From contig JACRLJ010000155.1 in NCBI GenBank assembly GCA_016215105.1, positions 48,208 to 96,077 on the forward strand: a DNA stretch of 47,870 bases, in the 5' to 3' direction. The position numbers were made by a program, and so were the translations under genes. How positions within the stretch are numbered: the stretch's first letter is position 1; each line of letters starts with the position of its first letter. Under the pieces are notes generated by a model. The model was given only the letters and a program-made list of their open reading frames with translations, was not told the origin of the DNA and did no database searches. Shown piece after piece: positions 44,680 to 47,281 of the stretch. This DNA comes from Candidatus Hydrogenedentota bacterium (GTDB lineage: Bacteria; Hydrogenedentota; Hydrogenedentia; Hydrogenedentales; SLHB01).

Positions 44680-44951
44680 GGTTGCTCCTCTGGATGTCTA
44701 AATAAGGATATCTTCGGATGTTCCCGTCCCACAATTCTTCGGAACCCGCCGCAGCCCTGGCCGGTCCCTCCGCGATATTGGAGCGTATTGTACCGAAATC
44801 GCGGCCCACGGGCAATTCCGATCCCAATAAGCTGATGGCGCGGTATAACCTTTGCTCCCGTCAACTCCATCCAATCCGTCCGAAGTGTTCCAGACAGCCC
44901 GCGCTCGTCGAGCGCGGGCTGTCTGGGAACGGATCTAGGGCCTCGTTCAGG
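44680..44951. other. Divergent intergenic region pit/DUF47 - leu attenuator
   Basis: 272 bp between the DUF47 start and the leu-type promoter. It contains a perfect 16-bp palindrome at 44890-44926 and a ribosome-binding site for DUF47; no other gene is recognised. Confidence 0.45.
44890..44926. repeat. Perfect 16-bp palindrome upstream of leu promoter
   Basis: Arms CCAGACAGCCCGCGCT and AGCGCGGGCTGTCTGG flank a 5-nt loop. No T-run, so not a simple terminator. It ends 26 bp before the -35 of the attenuator promoter and may be a REP-like element or a regulator site. Confidence 0.78.
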
Positions 44952-44981
44952 TTGACAATTCCACAAGAACCATGCTAGACT
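44952..44981 (+). promoter_or_regulatory. Promoter of the leucine attenuator
   Basis: -35 TTGACA (44952-44957), 18-bp spacer, -10 TAGACT (44976-44981) preceded by TGC as in extended -10 promoters. Expected transcription start near 44988, so the leader is about 175 nt to the end of the terminator. Confidence 0.82.
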
Positions 44982-45003
44982 CCCATCAGTTAGAGGATTA
45001 GCT

Positions 45004-45090
45004 GTGTTTAATTCGAAGCATATTCTGAGCCTGCCACTCCCACTCCTCCTCGTGGAGGAAGGTCGGCCCGTTATGCCTCGAATTACCTAA
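45004..45090 (+). CDS. leuL: Leucine-rich leader peptide (leuA attenuator)
   Basis: 28 codons from GTG (45004) to TAA (45088-45090), with GAGG eight bases upstream of the start. The peptide reads MFNSKHILSLPLPLLLVEEG then RPVMPRIT. Six of residues 8-16 are leucine (codons CTG, CTG, CTC, CTC, CTC, CTC) and Ile7 and Val17 flank them, which marks it as a control peptide of branched-chain amino-acid attenuation. Its codons overlap the RNA strand that pairs with the 2:3 and 1:2 hairpins (see the attenuator entry). It is not expected to have a function other than being translated. Confidence 0.85.
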   Translation: MFNSKHILSLPLPLLLVEEGRPVMPRIT

Positions 45091-45132
45091 AGTATTCCCC
45101 GAAAGGGTATCGCAATAGAAGAGGCCACGGGC
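45009..45132 (+). promoter_or_regulatory. Attenuator with alternative protector, antiterminator and terminator stems
   Basis: Four strands can be read. Strand 1 (45009-45022, TAATTCGAAGCATA) pairs with strand 2 (45072-45085) in 13 of 14 positions. Strand 2 (GCCCGT 45066-45071 and GCCTC 45075-45079) can instead pair with strand 3 (ACGGGC 45127-45132 and GAGGC 45121-45125), the antiterminator. Strand 3 also forms the 5' arm of the terminator. A ribosome stalled on the Leu codons (45025-45051) would cover strand 1, freeing strand 2 to pair with strand 3 and allow read-through; a ribosome that reaches the stop at 45088 covers strand 2, so 3:4 forms. Confidence 0.8.
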
Positions 45133-45162
45133 TTAAGCCCGTGGCCTCTTCGCTTTTTCTTA
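45119..45162 (+). terminator. Attenuator terminator
   Basis: Perfect 14-bp stem AAGAGGCCACGGGC / GCCCGTGGCCTCTT with a TTAA loop (45133-45136), followed by CGC and TTTTTCTT (45154-45161). It lies 30 bp after the leader stop codon and 168 bp before the leuA-like start. Confidence 0.92.
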
Positions 45163-45222
45163 ACCGTCCCACTAACGCGGGGCATGGGCGCGTATAGCGC
45201 CCCCGAAAGGAGGTGGTGTCCT

Positions 45223-45399
45223 ATGGATTCGGGGCTCGCTGCGCTCGAATCCGGTCACTCCGTGGCTTGCCGCTTTCATCCGTGTAACCGAAAGTTGCCG
45301 CAAACCTCCGCAATACAAGGAGTAGTACCATGCAAAAACGAGTACGCATTTTCGACACCACCTTGCGCGACGGCGAGCAAACGCCGGGCGTTCACCTGA
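45223..45399 (+). CDS. Possible small ORF with very strong ribosome-binding site
   Basis: 58-codon frame whose ATG (45223) is preceded by AAAGGAGGTG, a ten-base match to the complement of the 16S rRNA 3' end. It begins MDSGLAALESGHSVACRFHP and runs past the leuA start codon in another frame to 45399. The strong site argues for translation; the peptide has no known relative. It could couple ribosome entry to leuA translation or be chance. Confidence 0.35.
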   Translation: MDSGLAALESGHSVACRFHPCNRKLPQTSAIQGVVPCKNEYAFSTPPCATASKRRAFT

Positions 45400-46406
45400 C
45401 CGAGACTCAGAAGGTGGACATCGCCAAGGCTCTGGAGGCCTTTGGCGTGGACACTATCGAAGCGGGATTTCCGATTTCGTCACCGGGAGACCGCGCAGCA
45501 GTCGCCCGTATCGCGCGGGAAGTCCGTTCCTGCGAAATCGCCGCGCTGGCCCGCTGCGTGCAAGCCGACATCGCCGCGGCGGCCGGCGCCGTGAAGGACG
45601 CGGCGGCGCCGGTGCTTCACTTGTTCCTGGGCGTTGTTCAATTCACGCCCGAGGACTCGACGCGCGCCGAGCGGACCTTCCTGCGCCAATGCATCGGCGT
45701 CGCCATCGAAAACGGCGCCACCCGAATCAACATCGCCGATACCGTCGGCTGCGCGACACCCCGCGAGTTTGGCGCCTTGATTCGCGACATCGTGCAATTC
45801 GTTGGTCCATCCGTGGTGATTTCCGCGCACTGCCACAACGACATGGGCATGGCCACAGCCAACTCGATTTCCGCTGTCGAGCACGGCGCGGGGCAAGTCG
45901 AAGCCACCGTGAACGGTATCGGAGAGCGCGCGGGAAACGCCGCTATCGAGGAAATTGCTGTCGCCCTGGCGCTGAAAGGCATCGGCAAGACACGGCTGGA
46001 CCTGGCCCGGATTACGAACCTGTGCCGGAGCGTCAGCGCGGTCACCGGCGTACAGATTCAACCCAACCGGGCGGTCGCCGGCGATCACGCCTTCGCGCAC
46101 AGTTCGGGGATTCATCAGGATGGCATCTTGAAAGATCCGGAGAACTATGAGTTCGTTCCGCCGTCGTTGGTGGGAGCGCCCGGACACCGATTTGTGCTGA
46201 CGGCGCGTTCGGGCCGCAGCGCCATTGCGTACCGAGCCACGACGCTGGGAATAGCGCTGACGCCCGAAAAGTTAGCCGCCGCCTATAACGAGTTCATTTT
46301 GACGGCGGACGCTTCCCGAGGCGCCGTGCCGGATGCGGTCCTGGATTCGATCATCGTCCAAGTCAGCGCGCACGACGACTGTGCTTCGTGCATCGTAGCG
46401 AAATGA
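45330..46406 (+). CDS. leuA: 2-isopropylmalate synthase-like enzyme, short and with internal deletion
   Basis: Condenses acetyl-CoA with a 2-oxo acid in the leucine (or homocitrate-type) pathway. Motifs: FDTTLRDGEQTPG (Mg/Mn site), HCHNDMGMATANS, NGIGERAGNAAIEE and HSSGIHQDGILK. The length is 358 residues: the C-terminal LeuA regulatory/dimer domain of about 130 residues is absent. In addition, compared with family proteins about 33 residues are missing in frame between LFLGV and VQFTPEDST (near 45632-45640), covering the helix after the third strand of the barrel. Lacking the regulatory domain, the enzyme would not be feedback-inhibited by leucine in the usual way, which fits control by the upstream attenuator. 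ATG has AAGGAG upstream. Confidence 0.82.
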   Translation: MQKRVRIFDTTLRDGEQTPGVHLTETQKVDIAKALEAFGVDTIEAGFPISSPGDRAAVARIAREVRSCEIAALARCVQADIAAAAGAVKDAAAPVLHLFLGVVQFTPEDSTRAERTFLRQCIGVAIENGATRINIADTVGCATPREFGALIRDIVQFVGPSVVISAHCHNDMGMATANSISAVEHGAGQVEATVNGIGERAGNAAIEEIAVALALKGIGKTRLDLARITNLCRSVSAVTGVQIQPNRAVAGDHAFAHSSGIHQDGILKDPENYEFVPPSLVGAPGHRFVLTARSGRSAIAYRATTLGIALTPEKLAAAYNEFILTADASRGAVPDAVLDSIIVQVSAHDDCASCIVAK

Positions 46407-46450: not shown

Positions 46451-46490
46451 CCTGTCCGGCCCATCCCACGGGCCGGACAGGCGCACTTTT
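46451..46490 (+). terminator. Terminator after leuA-like gene
   Basis: Perfect 12-bp stem CCTGTCCGGCCC / GGGCCGGACAGG (46451-46462, 46470-46481) with a 7-nt loop, followed by CGCACTTTT. Confidence 0.9.
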
Positions 46491-46567: not shown

Positions 46568-47281
46568 TTGACCCGTCTGCGCGCGCGGATCGAGACGGAG
46601 CTAAGGCAGTTTCAGGAGCGCGTTCCCGAGGATCGCGAGATCGAAGCCATTCTCGCGAGTTGCGGAACGCCGGGCCGCGTCGCCGCCGAACTGCTCGGCA
46701 AGCACGGCGGATTGGATACCCTCGCGCTTTCCCCCGATCGGTGTTGGCTCGGAGTATGCGGAGGCGTGGCGCGGCGCTTCGACATGGACACGCGGACCAT
46801 CCGCGCCATGGCGGTCGTTCTCGGTCTCCTGACCGGCCCCCTGGCCCTTCTCGCTTACCTCGGACTCTACATTAACCTCTACGTGGGTACCGAGGACGAG
46901 TCTGTGCCCACAATCGACCGAGCTCGCTTCGTCCGATTAACACTGGGAACCCTCGGCGGGCTCATGGCGCTCTACGCCGGAAGCAGCGTTCTCGACGCCC
47001 TGATTTGCAGCGCCTACGCGAAATTCGCCGCCCACGCGCCGGAATCGCTCGGAAGCTGGCGCTGGCTCAACCGTCAGGGCTCAGGGTTGTTCTTCTGGTC
47101 ACTTATCCTGCTGCTTCCCATCGCCGCGCTCGCAGGGCTGCCTCTGGCAAATGGATGGGAGCGAACGGGGAAGAAGATTGTCCAAGCCGGTGTCGCGCTT
47201 TATGCGATGATTATCTGTCTGGGTATCGCGTCAGTCGTCGTCGGCGTCCTGCTGCAATTCGTCAAGGACTTCACGATTTAG
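46568..47281 (+). CDS. HAAS/PspC-domain membrane protein
   Basis: About 237 residues from TTG 46568, with AAAGGA nine bases upstream. The N-terminal 60 residues resemble the HAAS domain (EDREIEAILASCGTPGRVAAELLG). The next part is a PspC domain (CWLGVCGGVARRFDMDTRTI, then membrane segment AMAVVLGLLTGPLALLAYLGLYI), followed by two more membrane segments. PspC/HAAS proteins act in envelope stress sensing with a small PadR-type partner. The upstream in-frame sequence (YLRDIDLQLGTLSVKAKETA, from about 46508) also looks like HAAS but has no usual start codon, so the 5' end may be truncated or mis-assembled. Confidence 0.78.
   Translation: MTRLRARIETELRQFQERVPEDREIEAILASCGTPGRVAAELLGKHGGLDTLALSPDRCWLGVCGGVARRFDMDTRTIRAMAVVLGLLTGPLALLAYLGLYINLYVGTEDESVPTIDRARFVRLTLGTLGGLMALYAGSSVLDALICSAYAKFAAHAPESLGSWRWLNRQGSGLFFWSLILLLPIAALAGLPLANGWERTGKKIVQAGVALYAMIICLGIASVVVGVLLQFVKDFTI

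Follow-up and report, generated by a model that had tools for sequence, protein, structure and literature searches.

A predicted leucine attenuator family and a second conserved leader module upstream of leuA paralogs without the regulatory domain in Hydrogenedentota

Organization of the leuA Leader

The window, which is the whole 47,870-nt stretch of DNA analysed here, belongs to a 6.68-Mb Candidatus Hydrogenedentota assembly of 171 contigs (G000) and carries a leuA-like gene behind a leader composed of a promoter, a short leucine-rich ORF, and a set of overlapping RNA helices (Table 1). The promoter matches the consensus at 10 of 12 positions, and the leader ORF encodes the peptide MFNSKHILSLPLPLLLVEEGRPVMPRIT. 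Its leucine codons are CTG and CTC; a rare-codon explanation for them was discarded, since neither is rare within the window. A long GC-rich inverted repeat (GACAGCCCGCGCTCGTCGAGCGCGGGCTGTC, 44890–44926) lies in a divergent intergenic region, just 5' of the leader promoter.

Table 1. Features of the leader, the second module, and the downstream gene (window coordinates)
Feature	Position	Strand	Description and basis
Sigma-70 promoter	44952–44981	+	−35 TTGACA 44952–44957, 18-nt spacer, −10 TAGACT 44976–44981, extended −10 TG
Leader-ORF Shine-Dalgarno (SD) AGAGGA	44992–44997	+	Read from the sequence
Leader peptide ORF	45003–45089	+	28 codons, GTG start, TAA stop 45087–45089
Regulatory codons	45024–45050	+	Six Leu within nine codons (codons 8–16); sequence
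Protector strand 1	45010–45022	+	Partner 45072–45084; minimum free energy (MFE) fold; covariation
Inner hairpin UCCUCC-UCGU-GGAGGA	45044–45059	+	Inside the protector; MFE fold; covariation (helices 2–3)
Strand 2	45066–45084	+	Antiterminator 5' strand 45066–45079, overlapping protector 3' strand 45072–45084
Intrinsic terminator	45118–45159	+	Perfect 15-bp stem 45118–45151, then T-run; covariation
Second-tier Shine-Dalgarno SD2, GAAAGGAGGTGGTGTC	45205–45220	+	Conserved in 24/24 loci
uORF2	45223–45399	+	58 codons in the window; overlaps leuA in another frame
Hairpin H1	45225–45252	+	Begins in the uORF2 start codon; locus-specific complementarity
leuA-SD masking helix	45256–45324	+	45256–45271 with 45310–45324; covers leuA Shine-Dalgarno AAGGAG 45317–45322
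leuA-like gene	45330–46406	+	358 codons; HMGL-like and HCS_D2 domains, without the LeuA regulatory (R) domain

To characterize the secondary structure, we folded the segment 44985–45165, which reaches −76.6 kcal/mol compared with −48.1 ± 4.4 kcal/mol in dinucleotide shuffles (z = −6.6, 0/200). Its MFE structure holds the protector, extended by an additional U45009–A45085 pair, together with the inner UCCUCC/GGAGGA hairpin and the terminator. The antiterminator consists of 5 + 5 pairs (45066–45070 with 45128–45132, and 45075–45079 with 45121–45125), and the 5' arm of the terminator, 45121–45132, doubles as its 3' strand. The leucine codons lie directly 3' of strand 1 and the stop codon directly 3' of strand 2, a placement that fits the requirement of classical attenuation. 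When the RNA is masked up to 45062, as in a stall on the leucine codons, segment folding returns the antiterminator as the MFE structure (−24.8 kcal/mol); when it is masked up to 45100, as with a ribosome at the stop codon, the terminator remains; and with no masking, RNA ending at 45100 folds into the protector.

A sequence-only reading of this stretch had described a strong promoter, a 28-codon leader with six leucines in nine positions, a protector (45009–45022 with 45072–45085), an antiterminator (45066–45079 with 45121–45132), and a layout in which a ribosome stalled on the leucine codons masks strand 1. These elements were all recovered, the antiterminator at exactly those coordinates and the protector once the outermost U–A pair of the MFE fold is counted, and both the position of the codons next to strand 1 and the masked-segment folding agree with the layout. 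The terminator had been given as a perfect 14-bp stem at 45119–45150 with a T-run; the perfect pairing and the T-run hold, but the stem is one pair longer.

Conservation and Covariation of the Leader

Homologous leaders were collected from a phylum sample of 68 genomes, all from one order. LeuA relatives lacking the R domain, at 52–62% identity, were found in a further 16 genomes of the order, and a leucine-rich short ORF lies upstream of the gene in all 16, with a strong terminator in nearly all (that of L008 is imperfect, yet present in the alignment). Beyond these relatives and the window, seven more leader loci were recovered with the second-element pattern described below. The resulting alignment, A2, comprises 24 leaders (L001, L007–L022, L118, L120, L124, L129, and L131–L133), and part of the leader loci come from incomplete assemblies. 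All 24 possess a sigma-70 promoter, an ORF of 26–32 codons, a protector, an antiterminator, and a terminator, and each carries four to nine leucine codons; leucine codons in relatives, whose absence would have told against the sequence-only reading, are thus present throughout. The leader peptides are homologous across the relatives (MFNSKHxxxLLLPLLLVEExxPVMPRI type; for example, MFNSKHTLGLLLPLLLVEESGPAVPRIL and MYTNSKHNPNLLLPLLLVEESRFVVPRIS), and CTCCCACTCCTCC shows strong nucleotide conservation in many leader loci. A promoter-like pair (−35 TTGnnn with a −10 at 17–18 nt) precedes every aligned leader, with a mean score of 9.3 versus 6.5 for shuffled upstream sequence.

The helices were examined for compensating changes. 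For the antiterminator, 94.2% of the cells of A2 are standard pairs and 7 of 10 pairs are changed on both sides, and none of 500 shuffles reaches any of the measures; offsetting the partner by 1–3 columns lowers the pairing to 31–57%. The protector, inner hairpin, and terminator jointly are 87.5% paired (slid controls, 35–46%), with double changes at 20 of 33 pairs and 0/500 shuffles; by helix, double changes affect 5 of 12 pairs in the protector (helix 1) and 11 of 15 in the terminator, although the sequence counts in such tables are not equivalent to independent events. Since the terminator and antiterminator share one strand and the antiterminator and protector share another, the covariation of all of them directly supports joint maintenance of the three competing helices. 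The strong covariation upholds the leu attenuation logic that the sequence-only reading had assigned to this leader.

A covariance model built from A2 detects the leader in 33 of the 68 phylum genomes (E ≤ 0.01), with two or three of these matches being marginal, and the window leader is the best match of all (E 7e-36). The same model revealed no leader in 80 LeuA loci from other phyla. No comparable arrangement lies upstream of the full-length LeuA loci of the same genomes, and no attenuator was found before ilvB, trpE, or the full-length leuA of the window genome. A comparison with Rfam 15, including its attenuator leaders and T-boxes, matched no family at the gathering or a relaxed threshold and gave only terminator-driven sub-threshold matches. 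Within the genomes and loci searched, the leader family therefore appears confined to one phylum. As in other attenuators of this class, a promoter and a short ORF with a run of cognate codons, mutually exclusive helices, the corresponding placement of codons and stop, and a downstream gene of the cognate pathway occur together here. Because the homologous leaders share this anatomy and the three exclusive helices covary, comparative analysis identifies the leader as a predicted ribosome-mediated leucine transcription attenuator, one of a family conserved in the phylum through compensating changes.

A Second Module between the Terminator and leuA

The region between the terminator and leuA contains a second conserved module that the sequence-only reading did not mention. 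The sequence GAAAGGAGGTGGTGTC-NN-ATGGA, in this form or slightly varied, is present here in each of the 24 loci, and SD2 is a near-perfect anti-16S match. The extended SD2 pattern has a single occurrence in the window genome, and a genome-wide repeat is thereby ruled out (one copy in 6.7 Mb). The mini-ORF that follows, uORF2, is conserved in codons 1–5 only (M[DE]x[GE]L) and varies in length after codon 5, which is CTN (Leu) in 24/24 loci with all four letters represented at the third base. At several loci, uORF2 is a hexapeptide, M[E/D]x[G/E]LR; this form ends with all three stop codons among the loci, which argues for translation of the mini-ORF. Its end falls far upstream of leuA or inside it. 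A LeuA N-terminal extension was considered and ruled out, since uORF2 is out of phase with leuA in most loci and stops early in others.

To identify pairing within this region, we divided it into seven segments and compared the 21 segment pairs within loci and after exchange of segments between loci. Three of the 21 stand out: the two arms of H1 (p = 0.0025); the segment following H1 with the leuA SD; and an extension of the latter pairing (p = 0.019). The post-H1 segment pairs with the leuA SD of its own locus at −13.9 kcal/mol compared with −9.8 kcal/mol across loci (0/2000, permutation p < 0.0005), and over all loci the values are −12.7 and −10.0 kcal/mol (0/5000). The covariation of H1 is moderate, with 55 of 2000 whole-arm swaps equally good. 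Segment exchange gave no locus-specific signal for pairing of SD2 or H1 with the leuA SD or with each other, and no alternative pairing was seen between H1 and the masking segments.

The mini-ORF start lies 97–107 nt from the leuA start in 20 of 23 loci (101 nt in ten), whereas the interval between leader stop and mini-ORF ranges from 84 to 540 among loci. The near-constant spacing and the locus-specific SD pairing indicate that the second module is an independent unit able to mask the leuA SD, and these comparisons suggest a translational second tier. The masking duplex of the window, at −13.8 kcal/mol, beats all 22 cross-locus pairings. Within the complete MFE ensemble computed for the window, the leuA SD is about 29% paired and the masking helix is not dominant in the complete fold; with the SD mostly unpaired in its own ensemble, a second tier is weakly supported for this copy. 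The combination of a uORF and an SD-masking helix that marks translational attenuators of the erm/cat type is thus present across loci and ambiguous in the window copy.

Erosion of the leuA Product beneath the Leader

The window LeuA scores 384.6 bits against the 2-isopropylmalate synthase model (TIGR00973/PRK00915), below the cut-off of 598.7 bits, and the genome also encodes a full-length LeuA (contig 28) and a more distant family member (contig 10). An in-frame 33-residue gap follows about residue 102 (window 45630–45641), between two barrel strands, and the missing residues include a nearly invariant Ser and His (the S..H of the SDIH motif) and the following helix. This gap could be an assembly error. 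The sequence-only reading had placed the attenuator before a synthase without the regulatory domain; a family of such paralogs does exist, but an active enzyme from this copy is doubtful, judging from its sequence, because the 33 residues with the S..H pair are absent. The predicted structure is barrel-like (pLDDT 83, low at residues 101–110 and 258–273), so the gap alone is no proof of lost function. Downstream of leuA, a 12-bp GC-rich hairpin with a few T residues (46451–46481), perhaps the leuA terminator, falls below the terminator-scan threshold, and a gene for a PspC-domain protein (46568–47281) follows; the same neighbour occurs at L124, L132, L133, and L173.

Seven other copies (L118, L124, L129, L131, L132, L133, and L022) are truncated or catalytically degenerate, with open frames and with the leader and second module intact. 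The C-terminal part of LeuA is lost in G006, while the proteins of G002, G019, G003, G005, G015, and G032 comprise about 280–325 residues and have lost the RDGEQ and HSSGIH motifs. HMGL homology remains in the degenerate paralogs tested, weakly in L129. The dN/dS ratio is 0.36 for the degenerate pair L132/L133, the one close pair on which the estimate for degenerate copies rests, versus about 0.10–0.25 for intact pairs, which suggests that the degenerate products are relaxed yet constrained. A separate full-length-type LeuA match is present in all six degenerate genomes and in G006. Sequence comparison thus presents a downstream enzyme that is apparently eroding while the leader stays. The short LeuA protein might, purely by conjecture, have become a regulatory partner of the full-length enzyme.

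Leaders also occur apart from an intact leuA. A second leader copy in the window genome (L165, G000:C35:2921–3089, minus strand, E 2.7e-26) has a terminator, an intact ORF with a GTG start (MSSSKRILSLPLPVLLEEGTRFFAPRIT), and a protector with a compensated pair. It is followed by a decayed second module and then an amidohydrolase gene (Amidohydro_2), so a duplication has placed the leader in front of another operon. A further ORF downstream of L165 resembles the amidohydrolase-like one. The leaders L166 and L167 adjoin leuA remnants only, and L170–L173 have no leuA, with L171, L172, and L173 visibly decayed; among the leaders without leuA, several are missing the start codon or the terminator. 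One orphan leader, L169, lies at a contig end, where the gene may simply be missing.

Proposed Mechanism and Alternative Explanations

We propose, with a probability of about 0.88, that the RNA beginning at about 44988 is a classical leucine-responsive, ribosome-mediated transcription attenuator followed by a second module on the read-through RNA. When Leu-tRNA is plentiful, the ribosome would reach the leader stop codon and cover the antiterminator strand, allowing the 15-bp terminator to form. Under Leu-tRNA shortage, the ribosome would stall on the leucine codons and cover protector strand 1; strand 2 (45066–45079) would then capture 45121–45132, leading to transcriptional read-through. In RNA that is not translated, the protector would hold strand 2, making termination the default. 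The read-through RNA would next reach the strong ribosome-binding site of the mini-ORF, with its invariant leucine codon, and the helix that masks the leuA ribosome-binding site, and ribosome traffic on the mini-ORF may adjust leuA translation. Leucine dependence, the sites of stalling, and a connection of uORF2 with the masking helix are inferred. A broader scheme, which we regard as possible but tentative, is a two-tier leucine switch, attenuator plus translational module, acting on an R-domain-less LeuA that is losing its enzymatic role and becoming a pseudoenzyme under constraint, perhaps as a regulatory partner for the full-length LeuA, with the leader also copied to a new operon. The use of leucine codons that are not rare in the window, the gapped window enzyme, which leaves the gain from regulating it uncertain, and the leaders without intact leuA weigh against the attenuator as the best explanation.

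Those same observations could mean that the leader is a relic of the control of a once-working leucine enzyme, now standing before a decaying gene and having little present function in the window genome. The 33-residue gap, the degenerate or truncated copies in seven relatives, and the visible decay of several leaders that have outlived an intact leuA are what such a history would leave; however, no element of the window leader is damaged, it is this leader that the covariance model ranks highest, and dN/dS ratios at both the intact relatives and L132/L133 imply that the gene products are constrained. We therefore consider a relic unlikely, if far from negligible. The persistence of leaders where leuA is lost could also reflect action of the attenuated leader RNA or peptide in trans, and the strong nucleotide conservation of the segment shared by many loci accords with this idea, as does the trans-acting attenuator leader peptide of Sinorhizobium (PMC7298713). 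Several leuA-less leaders, however, have no start codon or terminator, L169 stands at a contig end, and slow decay explains the pattern more cheaply, making a trans function quite improbable. Finally, a chance short ORF beside an ordinary terminator, with no regulatory role, might be entertained from a single genome, given that short leucine-rich ORFs do arise by chance elsewhere; it is refuted by covariation in every helix and by the conservation of the leader across many genera, which leave its probability virtually nil.

The second module invites a different question, since it may be a nonregulatory element: an mRNA stabilizer or ribosome-loading site, of which the STAB-SD of Bacillus cry3A is an example, or a leader that boosts leuA translation through reinitiation. 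The near-perfect anti-16S match of SD2 and the unconserved length of the uORF past codon 5 would suit either role, and translation-enhancing leader genes that act by reinitiation have been postulated in many phyla, Planctomycetes included (PMC4833913). On the other hand, the leucine at codon 5 is invariant despite the free third base, the locus-specific helix masks the leuA SD, and uORF2 does not end 10–11 bp before leuA, unlike the arrangement in PMC4833913. We regard a nonregulatory second module as a credible alternative at somewhat less than even odds.

Significance and Comparison with Known Systems

The attenuator is carried by the LeuA copy without the leucine-binding domain, whereas the copy with that domain lacks the attenuator; RNA control may thus stand in for the feedback domain that the enzyme lacks. 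The findings extend classical leader-peptide attenuation, backed by strong covariation, to a phylum without genetics, and the erosion of the enzyme beneath a conserved leader raises the question of the present role of the protein. If true, the second module would provide a concrete example of one mRNA subject to transcriptional and then translational attenuation. In the open-access literature we found nothing relevant on attenuation in this bacterial group, in line with the sequence-only reading, which had held the attenuator to be unreported there, and no report of a serial second module after a leucine attenuator. The mechanism of the first tier is already known and the leader family is new; a new RNA family could be defined from its consensus and covariance model.

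The closest parallel is with the leuL-leuABCD attenuators of gammaproteobacteria, which share the leader ORF with its leucine run, the mutually exclusive protector, antiterminator, and terminator, the stop codon that masks strand 2, and a leuA-type gene downstream. The present family differs in belonging to another bacterial group and in lacking an Rfam match even at a relaxed threshold. The gene behind it is a single leuA paralog without the R domain, while the full-length leuA lies elsewhere, devoid of the element, and uORF2 and the SD-masking module come after the terminator. The actinobacterial LEU element also places a leucine-rich ORF 5' of leuA, and its leucine run has been proposed to pair with the leuA Shine-Dalgarno, with a pseudoknot in place of classical attenuator elements (PMC1262725). 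An upstream leucine-rich ORF and a proposed leuA-SD pairing are common to both systems, but a complete terminator/antiterminator is present here and masking relies on a different segment, located after uORF2; judged against the description in PMC1262725, the window element is not a LEU element.

Leader-peptide attenuation has been described in Proteobacteria and Actinobacteria and later in Firmicutes (PMC2965389), where examples are the his leader of hisZ/hisS (PMC2965389) and a leucine-rich attenuator of Staphylococcus aureus (PMC5794164). The Firmicutes systems likewise represent ribosome-mediated attenuation outside Proteobacteria and act on other genes, a distinction drawn from their descriptions. 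The second module, for its part, resembles the erm/cat translational attenuators in combining a short uORF with a helix that sequesters the Shine-Dalgarno of the downstream gene; it differs in that no antibiotic gene is involved and in that its mini-ORF, with an invariant leucine, stands in series after a transcription attenuator.
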